Assembly: GCA_016873835.1 (NCBI GenBank)
Contig: VGVY01000005.1
Span: forward strand, 1 to 64,000
Length of the DNA: 64,000 bases
Origin: Ignavibacteria bacterium
GTDB lineage: Bacteria > Bacteroidota > Ignavibacteria > Ignavibacteriales > Melioribacteraceae
Direction of reading: 5' to 3'
Shown here: positions 54,372 through 64,000 of the stretch, piece after piece
Numbering within the stretch: position 1 is the first letter of the stretch
Layout: every line of letters begins with the position of its first letter
The notes under the pieces: generated by a model
Told to the model about the DNA's origin: nothing
The model's database searches: none
What the model saw: only the letters and a program-made list of their open reading frames with translations
Made by a program: the position numbers and the translations under genes

Positions 54372-55265
54372 CTATTTTAAAGCTTCTTCATATTTAGAAA
54401 TGTGAGGCGTATCAACCTTTTTCAACATATTAAAAACTTCTTTATCAGAGTAGTCTTTCAAATATTCGATGAACTCGCCAGATTTAGCATCAAAAAATAC
54501 TTTTATGAATGAACTTCTTGGATCAATCTGATCTTTAACTTTAAAAAGATTTGATACAAGTTTAACCATATTTTCATGTGCTTTTGCACGCAGACCTTTT
54601 TCATAATATATATCTAAACCATTGTAATGGTAATCAAAAATATCATTTCGTAATTGTAAGTACTTCGCGTTTAATAAATTATCAACAAATCCTCTGCGAT
54701 TGTAAGTTGAACTTTTTAACTGCCACCCTTCTGCAAATCTATTAGTGCCTCCTCGAACAGCAATATCAAGTGCTTTTTGGAATAAATCGGAGCCGCCAAG
54801 TTTGTAAAATGAATCTAAATCAAAGCCAATTATTAAGTACGCATAGAAATCAAGCAAACTTGTTAGAGGATCAAAATCAGTTTGATTGAAATACATTGAT
54901 TGGTTTTTTTCATATCTGAAACCCCAACTATTATCAAGAATGTTAAGCATAAGTGAATTTAGTTTTGTGTTATAAATTGGCCTTTGACTTACAACTACCA
55001 GTTGAGCTGAATAAGTAACTTCATCACTAGCAGCAGTGAAAAAAATATTGAATGTACATTTTATCTTATCGCCTTCCCAATTCTGTCTAGTAAATTTATT
55101 ATTGTTAAGATAATCTTGAACTTGATTCTTAAAATTCTCTAGTCGTTCACGTGCAGCAATCTGAAGCTGTTCATAATTTACTATTACAGTAGCATCTAAT
55201 TCTTGTGAGTATAAATATATTGGGATAGAAAGTACTATTAGAATTGCTATGCTAAAATTTCTCAT
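54372..55265 (-). CDS. DUF4835 family secreted protein
   Basis: About 297 aa. Signal peptide MRNFSIAILIVLSIPIYLYSQ, then ELDATVIVNYEQLQ, SDEVTYSAQLVVVSQRPIYNT, LTSLLDFYAYLIIGFDLDSF and RRGFVDNLLNAKYLQLRN, the pattern of DUF4835 (Bacteroidota). Function unknown. The open frame reaches 55292 (TTG) and an ATG at 55283. I chose 55265 because GAG lies upstream and it leaves space for a promoter in the short gap to the divergent gene. Confidence 0.8.
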   Translation of the reverse strand: MRNFSIAILIVLSIPIYLYSQELDATVIVNYEQLQIAARERLENFKNQVQDYLNNNKFTRQNWEGDKIKCTFNIFFTAASDEVTYSAQLVVVSQRPIYNTKLNSLMLNILDNSWGFRYEKNQSMYFNQTDFDPLTSLLDFYAYLIIGFDLDSFYKLGGSDLFQKALDIAVRGGTNRFAEGWQLKSSTYNRRGFVDNLLNAKYLQLRNDIFDYHYNGLDIYYEKGLRAKAHENMVKLVSNLFKVKDQIDPRSSFIKVFFDAKSGEFIEYLKDYSDKEVFNMLKKVDTPHISKYEEALK

Positions 55266-55332
55266 CGTTTTCTCAAAATTCATTTTCTTCAAAATATATA
55301 ATTGATATATTTAATACAATCTTTTTCGATAA

Positions 55333-56160
55333 ATGATGCTACAATTAAAAAGATTAAAAATATCTTTCTTCGTTTTACTGCTTATCAATACACAAAGTTT
55401 CGGGCAAGTTAATCCCGGTGCACGCCAAATTGCACTATCACATTCTGATATAGCCTTTTCAGAAGAAGTGTTTTCTTTATTTAATAATCCAGCCGGGTTA
55501 GCATACCTAATCAATAGAGAAGTTGGTTTATTCTATTCCCCGGCCCCATTTGGGGTAAAAGAATTATCGAGTGGCTTCGGTGCATATGTAGAACCGACAT
55601 CAATTGGTTCCTTTAGCGGCGGATTCATGATTTACGGATTTGATCTATATAAAGAAACAAAAATTTTATTTGGCTTTGGGAGAAAAATAACTAATACTTT
55701 TTCGGTTGGATTGTCGGCAGTATATAGAAATATCTCAATCATAAATTATGGAAGCAAAGGAAATTTATCATTCAATTTAGGCAGCAGTCTTATACTATTA
55801 GAAATGGTTAGTATCGGAGCTTCAATTGAAAATGCAACAAATAGCACGGTTGGGAATGAAGAAAATCAATTGCCGGTAGTGTTCAACTCTGGTATTGGAA
55901 TAAAAATATTAAATGACTTCAAGACTTTTATGGCTATTCGAAAAGAACTTAATTATGATCTTTCAATAATGTTAGGTGCAGAATATAATATTTTTGATTT
56001 TCTTCAACTGCGTATTGGAACTGCAACAGAGCCAAATACTTTTTCCGGTGGTTTTGGTTTAAAGTTTAATTTTCTTACAGCAGAATATGCTGTTCTTTCT
56101 CATCCTGATTTGGATTTGACACATCAATTCGGTTTAGTTATTCAACTCAAAAACGAATAA
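55333..56160 (+). CDS. PorV/PorQ-like outer-membrane protein
   Basis: 275 aa. Signal peptide ending SFGQ; then NPGARQIALSHSDIAFSEEVFSLFNNPAGLA, the characteristic opening of PorV/PorQ-type barrels, and repeated amphipathic strands to a final aromatic/hydrophobic strand (HQFGLVIQLKNE). In Bacteroidota such proteins anchor or process type IX cargo. It precedes the HHH-barrel gene by 5 nt. Confidence 0.8.
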   Translation: MMLQLKRLKISFFVLLLINTQSFGQVNPGARQIALSHSDIAFSEEVFSLFNNPAGLAYLINREVGLFYSPAPFGVKELSSGFGAYVEPTSIGSFSGGFMIYGFDLYKETKILFGFGRKITNTFSVGLSAVYRNISIINYGSKGNLSFNLGSSLILLEMVSIGASIENATNSTVGNEENQLPVVFNSGIGIKILNDFKTFMAIRKELNYDLSIMLGAEYNIFDFLQLRIGTATEPNTFSGGFGLKFNFLTAEYAVLSHPDLDLTHQFGLVIQLKNE

Positions 56161-56165
56161 CATCA

Positions 56166-58145
56166 ATGAAAAAAATCGTCTTCGCATTAATTATTATTAG
56201 CTCAATACATTCATTTGCACAAGTCGATACAACACAATTGTTTGAAAATGTTGAGTCACTACTTGAAGATGCTTCCCAAGAAAATGAAGATTCACAAATT
56301 TTTGATTCAATAGAATATTTGCTAAATAATCCTATCTTACTCAATGAGTCATCAATCAACGAGCTTTTGCAGATTCCATTTTTAGATTTACCAGCTGCTC
56401 GGGCAATTATCAGACATAGAAATTTATTAGGTGGTATTTCTTATAAAGAGCAATTGTATAATATAGAAGGTATTAGCTCTGAGTTAATAGAAAAAATTAT
56501 TCCATTTTTAAAACTCGGTGATGAAAAATCAACTTCATTCTTTGATACATTTACACAATTTTCTCAGAATCTATCATTAAAGTATCGGACAAGGATGCAA
56601 TATGATATTCAAGAACGTCTTGGCTTTAGTAATAATAAATTCCTAGGTTCAAGACCAAAATATTATAATCGATTTTTGATAAATTCCTCAAATGCATTTC
56701 AGCTTGGGGCTGTAATTGAAAAGGATGCCGGAGAAGAATCGTTAACTGACTTTTCATCACTTCATTTACAAATTAGTGAATTAGGTTTTGTAAAAAATAT
56801 TCTGCTAGGTGATTTCAATTATGAATTTGGTCAAGGACTTGCTCTATGGAGCCCATACTCTTTTTCAAAAGGATCAGACGCTGTCAAAGTAATTTCGAAA
56901 CGTGCAAGGGATTCTTACCAGTATTCAAGTACTGATGAAAACAAATTTTTTAGAGGTGCTTCATTTCAAATAGACATTCTTGGATTTAAGATAATTCCAT
57001 TTTACTCTTTCAATTCATTGGATGCATCAATTGATTCTACTACAAACACAGTTACTTCTTTTACTGAAGATGGATATCATCGCACGTTAAGTGAGATCAG
57101 GAAAATCGATAGTGCAAATGAAAAGGTTTTTGGTATAATGACACATTACGCCCCAATTGACAATACAAACCTTGGTTTTCTTTTTTACAACTCAACTTTC
57201 ACTCCATCAATTTCTAATACAAATATTCATAAACCAAGCGGTTCGGATCATTCTTACTATTCATTGAGCTACTCAACAACATTTAATAGAATATTTTTTA
57301 CGGGAGAATTTTCATTTAATAACTTATCAGTAGCATCAATAAATAATTTGGAAATATTTCTCGAAAATAATTTTTCTTTAATTATTTCTTTAAGAAATTA
57401 TCCGAGGAATTATTATTCATTCCACAGTAATGGATTTGGAGAAAAAAGCACAACCCAAAATGAGGTCGGATTTTATTCAGGTTTTTATTGGAAAACATCT
57501 TTTGGTGTTTTCAATTTTTACTATGACCAATTTAAAATTCCAGTCGCCGGTAGTAACTATAATTTTTCTGCACAAGGAAATGATTTTTTGCTTAATTACT
57601 ACCATAGAATATTTCAAAACACAACCGCTACATTAAGATTTAAATCTGAAACAAAAGAGCAAGTTGAAATAATCAGCAATGAATTCAAGCTTATTGATAG
57701 AAGAATAACTAATCTGCGATTAGAAATTAATCATAAGGTTTCAAGAATTCTGCAAATGAGAACTCGCGCAGAATTCGTTTTTATTCCATCAAACATTGCA
57801 AATTCAAAAGAAACTGGCTCACTTTTCTTTTATGATTTGAAGTACATACCTTTTAATCAATTCTCCATTCAATCTAGAATTATTTTTTTTAGTACCGATT
57901 CATATAATTCACGCATTTATGAATTTGAAAATGATTTGATTGGTGTTATGACCAATCCACCCTTATATGGTGAAGGTTTTAGATGGTATTTATTATTGAA
58001 ATATTCTACAAAGTTTGGATTAAACGTTTCATTTAAATATTCTGAACTCCACAAGCCGAATGAAAAAGCATTGAGTAGCGGAGATTCAGAAATTTTTGGG
58101 AATTTAGATAATAAGATCAGTTTGCAATTGGACTTTAATTTTTAA
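56166..58145 (+). CDS. Helix-hairpin-helix plus outer-membrane beta-barrel protein
   Basis: 659 aa. Signal peptide MKKIVFALIIISSIHSFAQ. Residues about 35-115 hold ComEA-type helix-hairpin-helix repeats (SINELLQIPFLDLPAARAIIRHRNLLGGI, then EQLYNIEGISSELIEKI). The rest is a long beta-barrel with aromatic strand ends, finishing LDNKISLQLDFNF (C-terminal F). Related proteins are common in Ignavibacteria but have no proven role. It is convergent with the ferredoxin oxidoreductase gene, overlapping by 11 bases. Confidence 0.8.
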   Translation: MKKIVFALIIISSIHSFAQVDTTQLFENVESLLEDASQENEDSQIFDSIEYLLNNPILLNESSINELLQIPFLDLPAARAIIRHRNLLGGISYKEQLYNIEGISSELIEKIIPFLKLGDEKSTSFFDTFTQFSQNLSLKYRTRMQYDIQERLGFSNNKFLGSRPKYYNRFLINSSNAFQLGAVIEKDAGEESLTDFSSLHLQISELGFVKNILLGDFNYEFGQGLALWSPYSFSKGSDAVKVISKRARDSYQYSSTDENKFFRGASFQIDILGFKIIPFYSFNSLDASIDSTTNTVTSFTEDGYHRTLSEIRKIDSANEKVFGIMTHYAPIDNTNLGFLFYNSTFTPSISNTNIHKPSGSDHSYYSLSYSTTFNRIFFTGEFSFNNLSVASINNLEIFLENNFSLIISLRNYPRNYYSFHSNGFGEKSTTQNEVGFYSGFYWKTSFGVFNFYYDQFKIPVAGSNYNFSAQGNDFLLNYYHRIFQNTTATLRFKSETKEQVEIISNEFKLIDRRITNLRLEINHKVSRILQMRTRAEFVFIPSNIANSKETGSLFFYDLKYIPFNQFSIQSRIIFFSTDSYNSRIYEFENDLIGVMTNPPLYGEGFRWYLLLKYSTKFGLNVSFKYSELHKPNEKALSSGDSEIFGNLDNKISLQLDFNF

Positions 58146-59415
58146 CTGAATTCAACTCAAATAATTCTTCTAAATTTATTTTTGCGGCAAGTTTACTTTC
58201 AGAACAGACTTCAACAAAAACTTTTTTAGGAAATATTTCAGAGCTCTCTAAGAAAAATGCTAAACTAAATAATGCAGCAAATTTATTTGTAAATTTAGAA
58301 CGAAAGCCATTTTTTAAAATTTTCATTTTTGTTTCAGGAATTGCTAACGATGAATCAATTATAAGTTGACCACTTTCAGCTTTTTTAAGAATAGCTAATG
58401 AATAATCCAATCCATCATTAGAAGTGACGATTGCAAAATCAGGACAGCTTGAACCCGTAAATAAAATATTTTTAGGTGATAAAATTATTTCCGCAGATGA
58501 AAATCCTATTCCTACTGTAACTGGGTAGCTGCTCTTTTTTGTTGCATGCAATCCGGATTTAATTGCCGCTTGTGTGAATAATTCTGCTGCTGTTTGAACA
58601 CCTTCTCCAGCTGAACCGGAAATTAAAATGCTGATCGGTTTAGTTAACTTGTGATTTCTTTTGGGTTGTATAAATAACTTTTCATTGATCAATGGCTTGG
58701 GAGCATTTTTCACAGCCAGCTTAAATGGTTCTCTCATTTTATTGTAATATAATTTAATCGGGATCCCGGCTTCATTTGCGATATTTATTAATTTCATCCC
58801 GGGATTTGACTTCACTCCATAACTTGGGCACAATTCCAAAACTTCAACTAAAGAAAATCCGTTGTTTGTAATTGCCTCGGTGAAGGTTTTGTACATTTCC
58901 ATATTTGTTAAAATCCTACTGACGTAGTTTGCACCGGCAGATGATGCCATTTCACATATATCATATCCGCTATGATCTGCTCCTTCTTTTAATGTAGGAG
59001 TTTTGAACCCTAATGGGGTGAACTCACTTTGCTGTCCACCAGTCATCCCATATAACATATTATTGTGAACAATAACAGTCATATTAAAATTATTATGCGC
59101 TGCATCTAATATGTGCTGCATACCAATTGTTGCGCCGCCATCTCCAATAAAAACAATTATTTTTTTATTAGGATTTTCTAATGACATTGAAATGCCAGCA
59201 GCAAGAGCCACAGATCTTCCGTGCAATCCGTGAATTGTGTGCGTTGTAAAACATTTATCAACAATTCCATGACACCCAATATCAGTTACTATAATGACAT
59301 CAAAAGGTGAACAGTTTAATTCTTGCAGTGATTTATCAATTCCCATTGCAATTAATGAGTGACCGCAACCTTTACAAAATGGTAATTTTTCTTCAAGTAG
59401 ATATTTATTGCTCAT
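58135..59415 (-). CDS. 2-oxoacid:ferredoxin oxidoreductase, beta-gamma fusion
   Basis: 426 aa. Residues 1-245: TPP-binding beta subunit with CKGCGH (C14, C17), DIGCHG, GDGGATIGMQHILDAAHNN. Residues about 260-426: gamma domain (ISILISGSAGEGVQTAAELFTQAAIKSG). Converts a 2-oxoacid to acyl-CoA, reducing ferredoxin. In many KorAB systems the gamma part is fused to alpha, not beta. No ferredoxin-like delta subunit is present. Specificity (2-oxoglutarate, branched-chain or indolepyruvate-like) cannot be read from the sequence. Overlaps the alpha gene by 11 bases. Confidence 0.85.
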   Translation of the reverse strand: MSNKYLLEEKLPFCKGCGHSLIAMGIDKSLQELNCSPFDVIIVTDIGCHGIVDKCFTTHTIHGLHGRSVALAAGISMSLENPNKKIIVFIGDGGATIGMQHILDAAHNNFNMTVIVHNNMLYGMTGGQQSEFTPLGFKTPTLKEGADHSGYDICEMASSAGANYVSRILTNMEMYKTFTEAITNNGFSLVEVLELCPSYGVKSNPGMKLINIANEAGIPIKLYYNKMREPFKLAVKNAPKPLINEKLFIQPKRNHKLTKPISILISGSAGEGVQTAAELFTQAAIKSGLHATKKSSYPVTVGIGFSSAEIILSPKNILFTGSSCPDFAIVTSNDGLDYSLAILKKAESGQLIIDSSLAIPETKMKILKNGFRSKFTNKFAALFSLAFFLESSEIFPKKVFVEVCSESKLAAKINLEELFELNSVKN

Positions 59416-60529
59416 ATTTTAAAACTTCATTTATTATTTCATTTGGAGTTATCATTCTACCAAATTCATTTACACCTGATATATTTTTGCTTGAATTTGC
59501 ACCAAATAAAATTTGACGGTATTGACCGGTTAGATTCTCTTCTGCTACGATGACATTTTTGTGATTGATAACACATTCAAAAATAATTTTGGGTATCGGG
59601 AAAAGAGTCTTAACAATCAGAAGTGATACATGTTTCCCAATTTCTCGTAAAGATTCAATAGCTTCTTTTGCAGCTAGTGATGTTATTCCATACGAAATTA
59701 AAAGAGTTTCCGATTTCTTAGCTTCATTATAATCAAATAAACAAAATGCATTTTGATTTTTAATCATTTTATTATGCAAACGTTTTGAATTAAAAAGTGC
59801 TTCGTGTGTAGAATTTTGAATTATTCCTTTTGTGTTGTGTGTTGACGAAGTTATTCTAACCTGATGTTTATTATTATTTATCGGTAAAAATTGTGGGACA
59901 AGATTACTTTCGGGTTTATATGGGACATAAGTATCATCACTTTCAAAATAATTTCTTTTAATTTGTTCAATCTTTTTCAACTTAGTACAATCTACGTCAG
60001 CCATTGTCATCATTTCTTCTTTTGATGTTAAAATAATAACCGGAGTTCTTAGATTAACCGCAGTTTCAACTGCTTTAGCAGATATTTCCCAACAATCTAT
60101 TGAATCACCTACACAAAAAGTCGGTATTGCCATTCCGCCAGAAATTATCCCATTAAGTATACTTATATCCCCTTGAGAACCGATTGTAGCAGTTCCGGTT
60201 GATGGACCTAACCTTTGAACTAAAATAATTATCATAGGCAGTTCCATCATATATGCCATATTAATACTTTCTATCATCAATGCAAATCCGGGGAATGAAG
60301 TTGCAGTAACTGGAATTCTTGAAGTTGAAGAGAAGCCAGTCATCCACTGAAGAGTAGTAATTTCATCTGGTGCTGCTAAGAAAATAGGAAATCTTTCTGA
60401 TGCATATGAATAGAGTAAATTTGCCGGTGTTATTGGATATCCAATAAATACATCTGCTCCAGCTTGTGCTAATGACTCAATTACTAACCTTGAATTATCT
60501 GTAAATATTATTTGGTCATCAATTTCCAT
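59405..60529 (-). CDS. 2-oxoacid:ferredoxin oxidoreductase, alpha subunit
   Basis: 374 aa. ADVFIGYPITPANLLYSYA (GYPITPxx motif), APDEITTLQWMTGFSSTSRIPVTATSFPGFALMIESINMA, and QRLGPSTGTATIGSQGDI are the core alpha-subunit blocks, then a transketolase C-terminal-like domain. It lacks an N-terminal gamma domain because that domain is on the beta gene. It forms a two-gene operon with the beta-gamma gene. Confidence 0.88.
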   Translation of the reverse strand: MEIDDQIIFTDNSRLVIESLAQAGADVFIGYPITPANLLYSYASERFPIFLAAPDEITTLQWMTGFSSTSRIPVTATSFPGFALMIESINMAYMMELPMIIILVQRLGPSTGTATIGSQGDISILNGIISGGMAIPTFCVGDSIDCWEISAKAVETAVNLRTPVIILTSKEEMMTMADVDCTKLKKIEQIKRNYFESDDTYVPYKPESNLVPQFLPINNNKHQVRITSSTHNTKGIIQNSTHEALFNSKRLHNKMIKNQNAFCLFDYNEAKKSETLLISYGITSLAAKEAIESLREIGKHVSLLIVKTLFPIPKIIFECVINHKNVIVAEENLTGQYRQILFGANSSKNISGVNEFGRMITPNEIINEVLKYEQ

Positions 60530-60803: not shown

Positions 60804-61982
60804 ATGTCAACAAATCAATTAAAACACACGGATCACTATTTAGTAGAAGATTTATTTACAGCTGAACAGAAAATGATTCGAGAAACAATGGGAGAATGGG
60901 TGAACAAATCGGTAAAACCAATTATTGAGGATTACTGCGAAAAGTCAGAATTCCCAATCCATTTAGTAAAAGAACTTGGGGAACTTGGCGGCTTCGGACC
61001 ATTCATTCCAGAGAAATATGGTGGTGCTGGATTAGATTATATTTCATATGGAATCATTATGCAAGAACTTGAACGCGGTGATTCCGGAATTCGTTCAATG
61101 GCATCAGTACAATCATCTCTTGTTATGTATCCAATCAATTCTTTTGGAAGTGAAGTACAAAAAATGAAGTATTTACCCAAACTTGCAACTGGAGAAATAA
61201 TTGGCTGCTTTGGTTTAACAGAACCGGACTATGGTTCAGATCCCGGCGGAATGATAACTAGAATAAAAGATACTGGTGATTATTACTTGCTTAATGGCGC
61301 AAAAATGTGGATCACAAATTCATCCATTGCAGACATCGCTATTGTATGGGCAAAAGATGCAAATGATGAAGTAAAAGGAATGATAGTTGAAAAAGGAAGT
61401 GAAGGATTTTCAGCACCAGAAACACATGGCAAATGGTCTTTAAGAGCATCAGTTACCGGCGAATTAGTATTTGATAATGTGAAAGTACCAAAGGAAAATA
61501 TTCTGCCAAACATTTCGGGATTAAAAGGACCATTAAAGTGTTTAAGTTCAGCTCGTTATGGAATTGCATGGGGAGCTATTGGAGCAGCAATAGATTGTTA
61601 TGAAGCTGCTGTTAAATATTCTCTTGAGCGAAAACAATTTGGAAAACCAATCGGAGCGTTTCAGCTTCAGCAAAAAAAACTTGCTGATGCACTTACAGAA
61701 ATTACAAAAGCTCAATTATTGGTATTGCGATTAGGTCAGCTTTGTGATGAAGGAAAAGTAACTGCAGCACAGATCTCAATGGCCAAAAGAAATAATGTAG
61801 AAATTGCATTGACTATTGCGAGAGAAACTAGACAAATTTTAGGCGCAATGGGAATAACAAATGATTATCCGATGATGCGGCACATGATGAATCTAGAATC
61901 AGTTATTACATACGAGGGAACTCATGATATCCACACGCTAATAACTGGTCACGAAATTACCGGCATACCTTCTTTCAGATAA
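60804..61982 (+). CDS. gcdH: Acyl-CoA dehydrogenase, glutaryl-CoA dehydrogenase-like
   Basis: 392-aa flavoprotein. FAD/substrate motifs GCFGLTEPDYGSDPGGMITR and NGAKMWITNSSIADIAIVWA; the catalytic glutamate is in ITYEGTHDIHTLITGHEITGI. The THDIHxLI-GxxITGIxxF ending and FGLTEPxxGSDP are typical of glutaryl-CoA dehydrogenase, which oxidises and decarboxylates glutaryl-CoA in lysine/tryptophan breakdown. Exact substrate is inferred. Confidence 0.82.
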   Translation: MSTNQLKHTDHYLVEDLFTAEQKMIRETMGEWVNKSVKPIIEDYCEKSEFPIHLVKELGELGGFGPFIPEKYGGAGLDYISYGIIMQELERGDSGIRSMASVQSSLVMYPINSFGSEVQKMKYLPKLATGEIIGCFGLTEPDYGSDPGGMITRIKDTGDYYLLNGAKMWITNSSIADIAIVWAKDANDEVKGMIVEKGSEGFSAPETHGKWSLRASVTGELVFDNVKVPKENILPNISGLKGPLKCLSSARYGIAWGAIGAAIDCYEAAVKYSLERKQFGKPIGAFQLQQKKLADALTEITKAQLLVLRLGQLCDEGKVTAAQISMAKRNNVEIALTIARETRQILGAMGITNDYPMMRHMMNLESVITYEGTHDIHTLITGHEITGIPSFR

Positions 61983-62128: not shown

Positions 62129-63307
62129 ATGAAAACTATTGTAGCCTTACCGGGAGATGGGATTGGTAAAGTTGTTCTTAAAGAAGCAATTCGTTTACTT
62201 AATGCTGCTGGATTCAATGCAAATTATATTTGGGCCGATATAGGGTGGGACTTTTGGTGCAAAGAAGGAAATGCACTTCCTCAAAGAACAATTGATTTAA
62301 TTGAAGAACATAAACTTGCTTTATTTGGTGCAATAACTTCTAAACCGAAAGAGGCTGCAGATAAAGAGCTTGTCCATTCACTTCGAGGTAAAGGTTATAC
62401 TTATTTTTCTCCAATTGTTGGATTGAGGCAAAAATTTAATCTTGATATTTGCATTAGACCATGCATATCATTTAAAGGGAATCCGCTTAATTTTATACGC
62501 AAAAAAAATGACGGCACCTTTGAAGAACCGATTATCAACACTGTAATCTTTAGGCAAAATACAGAAGGACTTTACGCTGGCGTTGAATGGACTAATCCTC
62601 CCAAAAATGTACGCGATGCTTTTGAGTCGAATCCTAAAATGAAATCATTCTCGAATGTCCCTAATGAAGAAATAGCAATCTCCACTCGAATAGTTACTAA
62701 AAAAGCAAGTCATAGAATTATAAGGGCGGCTTTTGAATATGCAAAAAAACATGGATACACTAATGTTACATTATGCGAAAAACCGAATGTGCTTCGTGAG
62801 ACTTCTGGTATGATGTTGAAAATTGCTAATGAAGTTTCTAAAGAATATCCTAATATTGAATTATGGGACACCAACATCGATGCACAAATGATGTGGCTGA
62901 CAAAAAATCCTGAAGATTATGGGGTTATAGTTGCTGAAAATATGTTCGGCGATATCATAAGCGATGGTTTTGCCGGATTGATTGGCGGACTTGGATTTGC
63001 ATGCAGTGCTAATCTTGGTGATTACCAGGCTGTGTTTGAACCAACTCATGGAAGCGCACCAAAGTATGAAAATCTAAACCCATCAATTGTAAATCCAATT
63101 GCAATGTTTATGAGTGCTGTAATGATGTTGGAGTATATAGGAGAAATTAATTTGGCTGAAAAAATAAAAAATTCTATTGCATACGTGATTCAAGAAGGCA
63201 AAATTAAAACTTATGACATGCTTAAATTAAAAGGTGGTTCTGATTCTCTTAGTAAAGGTGCAGCCTCAACTACACAAATGACTGATGCAATTATTTCAAT
63301 GCTTTAA
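62129..63307 (+). CDS. Isocitrate/isopropylmalate dehydrogenase family enzyme
   Basis: 392-aa beta-decarboxylating dehydrogenase. LPGDGIGKVVLKEA at the start, LRQKFNLDICIRPC (substrate arginines), RQNTEGLYAGVEW, and the signature NMFGDIISDGFAGLIGGLGFACSANLG with the metal aspartates. Substrate could be isocitrate, 3-isopropylmalate or homoisocitrate-like acids; NMFGDIISD and lack of leu genes nearby favour isocitrate. A monomeric isocitrate dehydrogenase is also encoded at 41806. Confidence 0.85.
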   Translation: MKTIVALPGDGIGKVVLKEAIRLLNAAGFNANYIWADIGWDFWCKEGNALPQRTIDLIEEHKLALFGAITSKPKEAADKELVHSLRGKGYTYFSPIVGLRQKFNLDICIRPCISFKGNPLNFIRKKNDGTFEEPIINTVIFRQNTEGLYAGVEWTNPPKNVRDAFESNPKMKSFSNVPNEEIAISTRIVTKKASHRIIRAAFEYAKKHGYTNVTLCEKPNVLRETSGMMLKIANEVSKEYPNIELWDTNIDAQMMWLTKNPEDYGVIVAENMFGDIISDGFAGLIGGLGFACSANLGDYQAVFEPTHGSAPKYENLNPSIVNPIAMFMSAVMMLEYIGEINLAEKIKNSIAYVIQEGKIKTYDMLKLKGGSDSLSKGAASTTQMTDAIISML

Positions 63308-63358: not shown

Positions 63359-64000
63359 ATGAGCGGTGTAACTTTAATCCTTTTTGCTATTATTGCATTT
63401 CTATTTGCATATCGTTTTTATGGTTCATTCCTCACAAGACGTTTGAACGTTTCAAATTCAAACACTACTCCTTCACATTCTATGAACGATGGAGTAGATT
63501 ACTGCCCAGCTAAACCGCCGGTTTTAATGGGTCATCACTTTGCGTCTATTGCCGGGGCTGGTCCAATAGTTGGGCCAATCATTGCCGCAAGTTTTGGCTG
63601 GGTTCCAGTGTATGTTTGGGTTCTTGTTGGTGCAACATTTATTGGCGGTGTTCATGACTATACAGCCATTATAGCTTCCGTTCGCCACAAAGGGAAATCG
63701 ATTGGTCAAATAATCGAAACATATATCGGTATAAATGGAAAAAAATTATTTCTAATTTTTACTTGGGCAACTTTGATATTAGTAATTGCAGTTTTTACAA
63801 TAATTGTAGCAAATACTTTTTCAAGCATTCCGAGTAGTGGAACTTCCTCAATTTTATTTATGGTGCTCGCAGTTGCATTCGGTCTAACAATTTACCGCTT
63901 AAAAGCTCCACTTATAGTTTCGTCTATCATCGGAGTTGCATTATTGTTTTTCTGTATTTATTTGGGAAATATTTTCCCAATTGTTTTATCCCGTCAAATA
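63359..64000 (+). CDS. cstA: Carbon starvation protein CstA family transporter (5' part)
   Basis: Open from ATG 63359 to the window end (214 codons, no stop). Multi-pass membrane protein with NDGVDYCPAKPPVLMGHHFASIAGAGPIVGP and FGWVPVYVWVLVGATFIGGVHDY, the CstA hallmark blocks. Family members import pyruvate or peptides. GAAAGGAAAG lies before the ATG. The 3' end is outside the window. Confidence 0.92.
   Translation, partial: MSGVTLILFAIIAFLFAYRFYGSFLTRRLNVSNSNTTPSHSMNDGVDYCPAKPPVLMGHHFASIAGAGPIVGPIIAASFGWVPVYVWVLVGATFIGGVHDYTAIIASVRHKGKSIGQIIETYIGINGKKLFLIFTWATLILVIAVFTIIVANTFSSIPSSGTSSILFMVLAVAFGLTIYRLKAPLIVSSIIGVALLFFCIYLGNIFPIVLSRQI

Follow-up and report, generated by a model that had tools for sequence, protein, structure and literature searches.

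A predicted glutaryl-CoA-forming 2-oxoadipate:ferredoxin oxidoreductase with beta and gamma subunits joined in one chain

Contig VGVY01000005.1 of an Ignavibacteria bacterium, of which the first 64,000 nucleotides were analysed (the window), carries a gene pair for a 2-oxoacid:ferredoxin oxidoreductase (OFOR) in which beta and gamma are encoded as one chain and alpha as another. Which 2-oxoacid does such an enzyme act on, and in which pathway? Based on the evidence given below, the pair is predicted to encode a 2-oxoadipate:ferredoxin oxidoreductase that forms glutaryl-CoA, a reading that we regard as probably correct; what is new is the likely job of the enzyme, the enzyme type itself being known.

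The alpha gene (59405..60529, minus strand, 374 aa) lies upstream of the fused gene (58135..59415, minus strand, 426 aa), and the two intact open reading frames (ORFs) overlap by 11 bases. The 426-aa chain consists of a beta part (residues ~1-215), a linker (~216-257) and a gamma part (~258-426). In it, Pfam placed TPP_enzyme_C at residues 45-192 (58840..59283, minus strand, as derived from the residue numbers) with 96.6 bits against a cut-off of 21.9, and POR/gamma (PF01558) at residues 269-371 (about 58300/58303..58611, minus strand) with 38.8 bits against 27.4, covering positions 1-102 of the 173 in the profile. Alpha, with a YPITP motif and R106, matched POR_N (residues 21-240) and PFOR_II (274-337), and OFOR superfamily domains I and II (alpha), III (gamma) and VI (beta) were all above their Pfam cut-offs. 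A sequence-only reading of this DNA had proposed a beta-type thiamine pyrophosphate (TPP) domain and a gamma-type domain in one chain with alpha free; the Pfam matches and intact frames bear this out, and its proposal that the C-terminal half is of gamma type is left standing by the PF01558 match. Alpha showed no POR/gamma match at E values up to 1, which sets the pair apart from two-subunit OFORs with gamma on alpha. Nor does the pair have the separate gamma and the ferredoxin-like delta of four-subunit OFORs, no delta being encoded between alpha and the next gene, where no ORF of at least 25 aa with an ATG, GTG or TTG start was found. No cut-off was reached among the NCBIfam matches listed (25 of 59 families for the fused chain, 24 for alpha); in particular, the 2-oxoglutarate-specific Kor/Oor cut-offs were missed by both alpha (best model 221 bits, cut-off 482.75) and beta (142 bits, cut-off 402).

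Modelled with AlphaFold2 (mean pLDDT 88.6, pTM 0.61), the fused chain resembled solved beta chains (8ys5_C, target TM 0.74) as well as solved gamma chains (target TM 0.74 for 9bt4_E, 0.73 for 3on3_A and 0.73 for 8ys5_B), and on this model the C-terminal half is a gamma fold despite its divergent last 61 residues. Relatives were collected by scanning genome contigs with two beta-domain motifs, which gave 254 stretches, 220 of which are relatives; the best 80 of the 220 were examined, a ranking by score that favours fusions among them, and the remaining 140 stand outside all counts. Median identity of 77 relatives to the window chain was 60% in beta, 24% in the linker, 55% in the first part of gamma and 25% in the last 61 gamma residues, and the partial Pfam gamma match fits this divergent tail.

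Conservation was read from alignments of 78 fused proteins (the window's and 77 relatives) and 75 alphas. All 78 fused proteins keep C14, C17, C48 and C196 of beta, which we take to be the ligands of a [4Fe-4S] cluster, as well as D92, N118 and N119 (GDG...N, TPP-Mg), Ile51 and Met124. In alpha, Y31, I33, T34, P35, E56 and R106 were each found in 75 of 75 sequences, and P32 is among the columns at least 95% conserved. According to the available text of PMC5020499, the YPITP motif, the catalytic Glu and the carboxylate-binding Arg have their roles in alpha, and Lys49 of the Sulfolobus b-subunit is needed for 2-oxoglutarate, the K49I change abolishing that activity. In our alignment the Ile51 column holds Lys in Sulfolobus and Arg in Helicobacter, and the window enzyme thus does not carry the basic residue of 2-oxoglutarate enzymes at this position. 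Three positions after Ile51, a Lys (63/78) or an Arg (7/78) is present in the fused proteins, and it is open to speculation that this basic residue could serve a longer substrate. The pocket residues, as judged from the alignment, point weakly to 2-oxoadipate. A further difference lies in gamma: in the unfused gamma rows matched by the fused-gamma model (9 rows, 7 distinct genes), an acidic-x-basic-Gly segment is kept, and the fused rows have PVTxGxGFS, or GYS at its end, in the 12 commonest variants, which make up 104 of 115 rows (copies of one gene included). In Sulfolobus a gamma loop with Ser41a lines the pocket (PMC5020499, available part). By analogy, the PVTxGxG segment may correspond to this pocket-lining loop.

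The fusion is no local accident. All 80 best relatives span the query from residue 11 or earlier to residue 407 or later, the matched stretch is open in every one of them (one ends in its own stop), and each has the gamma motif PVTxGxG[FY]S or its Ile variant; both TPP_enzyme_C and POR were matched in 54 of 54 aligned fused proteins (the window's and 53 relatives). According to the record titles, the 80 are mostly from Bacteroidota, some from Ignavibacteriota, and one to four each from Bipolaricaulota, Eisenbacteria, Fermentibacteria/Hyd24-12, WOR-3, Delongbacteria, Chloroflexota (Thermoflexus and another) and Thermoplasmata; as nearly all of these relatives are metagenome bins, the phylum given for any one of them is unreliable. 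Among 38 genomes related at levels from genus to order (the window's own included), long stretches of both halves were matched not only in the own genome but also in three congeners (at 55-56% identity) and in a single member of a different family (at 41%). A survey of the window's class, as the sequence-only reading had suggested, gave matches to the fusion query in 66 of 294 genomes at E 1e-45, of which 58 were counted as full-length (one of these cut at a contig end, one with a stop) and eight were dropped for short or split best matches. In the class of the Bacteroidales genome that carries locus L088, 9 of 295 genomes matched at E 1e-120, and in its order 19 of 247 at E 1e-100. Apparent triple fusions in L135, L098 and L143 (ORFs of 768, 705 and 508 aa) were discarded as upstream extensions by the ORF caller, only their 3' parts matching alpha or beta-gamma. 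It was also noticed that a second fused beta-gamma subfamily exists (L009 and L037-L064, contexts L151-L165; 29 tree rows), with NDNPVTQGSGFS as the commonest motif; by eye, electron-transfer flavoprotein genes occur beside it in three loci, and an extra alpha-beta-gamma OFOR set adjoins it in three.

The sequence-only reading had raised the question of substrate range and named no candidate; the assignment of a substrate draws on the genes on the other side of alpha. Divergent from alpha lies a glutaryl-CoA dehydrogenase (GCDH) gene (60804..61982, plus strand, 392 aa), whose product has glutaryl-CoA dehydrogenases as its best solved relatives (448 bits, with 228 for the best short-chain acyl-CoA dehydrogenase). 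E90, R97, S98 and T171 of this protein are kept in 22 of 22 aligned sequences and Y370 and E371 in 21 (the last row being incomplete), and these six positions are presumably the substrate and catalytic contacts of human GCDH. Promoter and terminator scans of the alpha-GCDH intergenic stretch gave no excess over shuffled sequences. The next gene (62129..63307, plus strand, 392 aa) encodes a homoisocitrate-/isocitrate-dehydrogenase-like protein, for which the best NCBIfam model is homoisocitrate dehydrogenase (274 bits, cut-off 500) and the best solved relative is an isocitrate dehydrogenase. It has Ser at the position of E. coli isocitrate dehydrogenase Ser113, Ile at that of Asn115, as in the aligned Thermus homoisocitrate dehydrogenase, and Val where Thermus has an Arg (Arg85, the numbering and roles of these residues being ours by assumption). 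The protein also exceeds the homoisocitrate dehydrogenase models (333-345 positions) by about 50 residues and stays under the cut-offs of all 16 NCBIfam models listed. Its gene is followed by the start of a CstA-like carrier gene (63359..64000, plus strand), which continues past the window, and then, outside the window, by a single-chain bacterial homoaconitase gene (contig C5, 65015-67006; L187:3016-5007) that scored 867 bits against the TIGR00139 cut-off of 529.9, the aconitate hydratase model staying at 374.5, under its 612. Because 2-oxoadipate connects both homoisocitrate dehydrogenase and lysine breakdown with glutaryl-CoA, and because OFORs make acyl-CoA from 2-oxoacids, 2-oxoadipate is proposed as the substrate.

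The rest of the genome, a draft of 187 contigs, adds the lysine side. An L-lysine 6-transaminase (631 bits, cut-off 520.8; over the cut-off in 0 of 14 control genomes) and a piperideine-6-carboxylate (P6C) dehydrogenase (799 bits, cut-off 730) are encoded close together on opposite strands (L174:2415-6202), and the saccharopine dehydrogenase C domain PF16653 was searched for in this genome and not found. With GCDH and homoaconitase at the locus and the two lysine enzymes elsewhere, enzymes linked to 2-oxoadipate and glutaryl-CoA are thus present together. The E1 of 2-oxoglutarate dehydrogenase (TIGR00239), present in 181 of 294 genomes of the class, was not detected in the draft genome at E 1e-100, and four genomes of genus g38, from the same family, are likewise without a detected E1. 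Three further places with PF01558 were found in the window's genome, namely a 1200-aa PFOR-like frame, a gamma-alpha plus beta set and a delta-alpha-beta-gamma set.

In the scheme that we propose, an (alpha, beta-gamma)2 enzyme would convert 2-oxoadipate, CoA and two oxidised ferredoxins to glutaryl-CoA, CO2 and two reduced ferredoxins, with TPP held between alpha and the beta domain, the sole [4Fe-4S] cluster in the beta domain, and electrons passed to an external ferredoxin. Upstream, 2-oxoadipate would be supplied from lysine by L-lysine 6-transaminase, P6C dehydrogenase and an unspecified 2-aminoadipate transaminase; downstream, GCDH would turn glutaryl-CoA to crotonyl-CoA, and the OFOR would replace the lipoate-dependent 2-oxoadipate dehydrogenase complex. 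Lysine breakdown is thus a good guess for the pathway in the window organism and those closest to it.

Neighbouring genes of the 80 relatives, named from a scan of one representative per cluster, extend this picture. A GCDH 66-80% identical to the window's was found in 21 of the 80 loci, a CaiB-type CoA-transferase in 29 and an SSS-type symporter (152 bits, cut-off 184) in 31, and 52 loci have at least one of the three. The window's succession of GCDH, alpha and beta-gamma also appears on a contig titled Melioribacter roseus (L065). The gene directly upstream of alpha is a CoA-transferase in 28 cases, a divergent GCDH in 14 and a codirectional GCDH in two (L122, L134), four more codirectional upstream genes being other acyl-CoA dehydrogenases 33-35% identical to the window GCDH; in other loci GCDH lies downstream in convergent orientation (L080, L082), is one gene away (L083) or sits at a greater distance (L086, L088). 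These varied placements suggest that the link was made or remade more than once, and, because the loci are related to each other, no probability was put on the neighbour counts. Among NCBIfam models, succinate--glutarate CoA-transferase fits the CoA-transferase best (286 bits, the next 212; cut-off of 750 not reached), and its best solved relatives are a formyl-CoA transferase (249 bits), a CAIB/BAIF family protein (239) and a succinate--hydroxymethylglutarate CoA-transferase (237). The types meet in L088, with the order thiolase-cluster gene, acyl-CoA dehydrogenase, GCDH, symporter, CoA-transferase, alpha, beta-gamma. In Bacteroidota members, the evidence favours a link to glutarate more than one to lysine.

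The homoaconitase link also recurs. In two g38 genomes, alpha and beta-gamma directly adjoin a homoisocitrate-dehydrogenase-like gene and then homoaconitase (883 and 868 bits; loci taken from two of the four genomes of the genus, further neighbours being alike by eye), and the dehydrogenase-like protein of one of them (L166) is 79% identical to the window's. In a Bacteroidota bin (L066), GCDH, alpha and beta-gamma are followed in turn by a dehydrogenase gene (its product sharing 69% identity with that of L166), a short ORF and a pair of aconitase-superfamily genes; neither of the pair reaches the homoaconitase cut-off, and one exceeds the cut-off for the homoaconitate hydratase family (TIGR01343). 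It is conceivable, if unlikely, that the cluster forms a ferredoxin-linked 2-oxoadipate node on a homocitrate branch, in which homoaconitase and homoisocitrate dehydrogenase would join 2-oxoglutarate and acetyl-CoA to glutaryl-CoA and crotonyl-CoA outside the usual tricarboxylic acid (TCA) cycle, in an organism with no detected 2-oxoglutarate dehydrogenase. On the other flank of the pair, a convergent 659-aa ORF (56166-58145, plus strand) overlaps the fused gene (minus strand) by 11 bases at the 3' ends (58135-58145); by eye, look-alikes of this ORF and of the genes at 55333-56160 and 54372-55292 adjoin the fused OFOR in L166 and in L167, both of the same family.

Several observations weigh against 2-oxoadipate as the substrate. 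The names of the CoA-transferase, symporter, GCDH and homoisocitrate-dehydrogenase-like genes all lie below curated NCBIfam cut-offs, and all three neighbour types are missing from 28 of the 80 loci, several of which are on short contigs. Across genomes, no co-occurrence of the fusion with an enzyme leading from lysine to 2-aminoadipate was seen: among 50 fusion genomes (from the first 50 of the 80 loci), L-lysine 6-transaminase was found in just seven, a count made in fusion genomes alone, and P6C dehydrogenase in 20, with none at E 1e-110 in the other 30; and in one Bacteroidota order of 247 genomes with 19 fusions and 68 P6C dehydrogenases, five genomes shared both, with 5.2 expected, which shows no coupling. 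On the same figures (5 of 19 against 5.2), the idea that the fusion is always tied to lysine breakdown was dropped. E1 is present in 30 of the 58 class genomes with a full-length fusion, mostly with the second subfamily or unplaced, and GCDH-like proteins occur in 265 of 294 class genomes, so that their presence alone says little and their co-occurrence is uninformative. Some loci of the main group keep other company (hydantoinase A/B, HMG-CoA-synthase-like, thiolase), and the second fused subfamily with its other neighbours indicates that the fusion in itself does not imply 2-oxoadipate.

The last two observations would suit an enzyme for another 2-oxoacid (branched-chain, aromatic or unspecific), the glutaryl-CoA neighbours then belonging to a broader acyl-CoA degradation locus. 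In L079, L084, L092 and L094, the fused OFOR stands beside hydantoinase A/B, another acyl-CoA dehydrogenase, an HMG-CoA-synthase-like/OB-fold protein and a thiolase where the contig continues, possibly a different pathway; of these loci, L079, L084, L094 and partly L092 speak for such a substrate. Four-subunit OFORs are often branched-chain specific. One of that type is already encoded in the window's genome, however, and in both sequence and key residues the linked acyl-CoA dehydrogenase falls among the glutaryl-CoA dehydrogenases, which leaves this alternative unlikely.

A reversed reaction was weighed as well, in which glutaryl-CoA, made from glutarate by the CoA-transferase, would be carboxylated with reduced ferredoxin to 2-oxoadipate for the biosynthesis of lysine or of the homocitrate branch. 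OFORs are reversible, and this direction would agree with the 27 of 80 loci that hold symporter and CoA-transferase together, with GCDH being in view at only 2 of the 29 CoA-transferase loci, and with the 30 fusion genomes in which P6C dehydrogenase was not found. On the other hand, the window GCDH has the residues that we assume for the decarboxylating type and would draw off glutaryl-CoA, and genes for lysine degradation are present at another place in this genome. The forward direction from 2-oxoadipate is preferred, and the reverse one appears improbable.

Could the pair instead serve the TCA cycle, oxidative or reductive, as a 2-oxoglutarate:ferredoxin oxidoreductase, with the neighbouring aconitase-family and dehydrogenase genes acting on citrate and isocitrate? 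Among the models, those of the Kor/OAFO families come closest to alpha and beta, no sucA was found in the window's genome, and the neighbouring dehydrogenase could be an isocitrate dehydrogenase, as its best solved relative is one. Yet a Kor-type gamma-alpha plus beta set is already present in the genome, the neighbour from the aconitase family passes the homoaconitase cut-off and falls short of that for aconitate hydratase, Ile51 stands in place of the lysine needed for 2-oxoglutarate in Sulfolobus, and the adjoining GCDH would have no role in the cycle; we consider this alternative quite unlikely. That errors in sequencing or assembly created the fusion, as a 187-contig draft and the existence elsewhere of adjacent separate beta and gamma genes (Ilyobacter, L188) might suggest, is refuted by independent genomes, since the same fused frame occurs in three other genomes of the genus, the frame is open over the whole match in all 80 best relatives, and both domains were present in all 54 proteins scanned.

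How the fusion arose can be approached from the unfused relatives. In a tree of 142 beta domains, the 33 unfused rows form one group (99/99), and the fused rows fall into a main part of 79, the window included, and the second group of 29 (100/96). A fragment (L079_U229) stands apart with a branch length of 6.8, and this tree requires two changes of the fused label; in a FastTree run without the fragment and with three rows added, a single fused/unfused split was obtained (support 1.0, and 0.955 as printed after rerooting). A single origin of the fusion is thus possible, not proved. In Ilyobacter, the gene order is 4Fe-4S protein, alpha, beta, gamma, with three bases between beta and gamma, and in five genomes the search match continues out of beta into gamma across in-frame stops (one stop in four genomes, two in the other). 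The adjacent genes and these in-frame stops suggest loss of a stop codon as the simple route, and the beta-gamma fusion may have arisen once in this way.

The fusion appears to be standard in no named enzyme class, as judged from the NCBIfam matches listed and the open literature. Titles and abstract openings of the top-listed papers in open PubMed Central, outside which most subscription journals lie, gave no evident report of fused OFOR subunits of the beta-gamma kind or of a 2-oxoadipate OFOR (the homocitrate branch was not covered by the search), and the accessible portions of PMC9986279, PMC5264521, PMC7661554 and PMC12655727 describe no 2-oxoadipate OFOR. If the prediction holds, anaerobes that degrade lysine via 2-oxoadipate would have a dedicated ferredoxin step to glutaryl-CoA without a lipoate complex, electrons would be conserved at low potential, and alpha plus a beta-gamma chain with PVTxGxG would be a genomic marker for the step across several phyla. 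The chain also offers another subunit arrangement for comparing how gamma is tethered in OFORs.

Compared with known systems, the pair shares with Sulfolobus StOFOR1/2 (5b48, 5b46) the alpha domains I-II, beta VI and gamma III, one [4Fe-4S] cluster, the absence of a ferredoxin domain, the YPITP motif and the essential Arg, whereas gamma is on the alpha N-terminus there and on the beta C-terminus here, with Lys49b there and Ile51 here, at ~30% identity to 5b46_B in a fold alignment. Gamma on alpha, which had been called the more familiar fusion, is indeed what the Sulfolobus two-subunit enzymes (PMC5020499, as far as its text was available) and the second OFOR of this genome have. The missing delta and the need for an external ferredoxin, raised as features of the fusion, held in part: no delta lies beside the pair, but this is not peculiar to it, since the Sulfolobus enzymes likewise have no ferredoxin domain, one cluster and an external ferredoxin (same source), and all 78 fused proteins retain the four cysteines. 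Lack of delta is ordinary for OFORs with one beta-bound cluster. In Moorella oxalate oxidoreductase (MtOOR), gamma is also joined to a partner other than alpha, domains III-V being in one subunit, whereas that partner is the ferredoxin domain and not beta, YPIRP replaces YPITP, and no CoA is used (PMC5020499, available part). The 2-oxoadipate dehydrogenase complex of the DHTKD1 type in lysine degradation has the same proposed substrate and product, with GCDH as the next step, whereas its E1 family TIGR00239 is unmatched in the window's genome at E 1e-100. That complex uses lipoate/NAD machinery. Finally, the four-subunit OorDABC/KorDABC type (Helicobacter 8ys5, Ilyobacter L188) has a separate alpha, as here, and the 8ys5 beta is the nearest solved chain; it differs in its separate beta and gamma, its delta, and an E-x-R/K-G gamma segment in contrast to PVTxGxG in the fused chains. 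With beta just before gamma, the delta-alpha-beta-gamma order of Ilyobacter would be the natural parent of a fusion of the window type.

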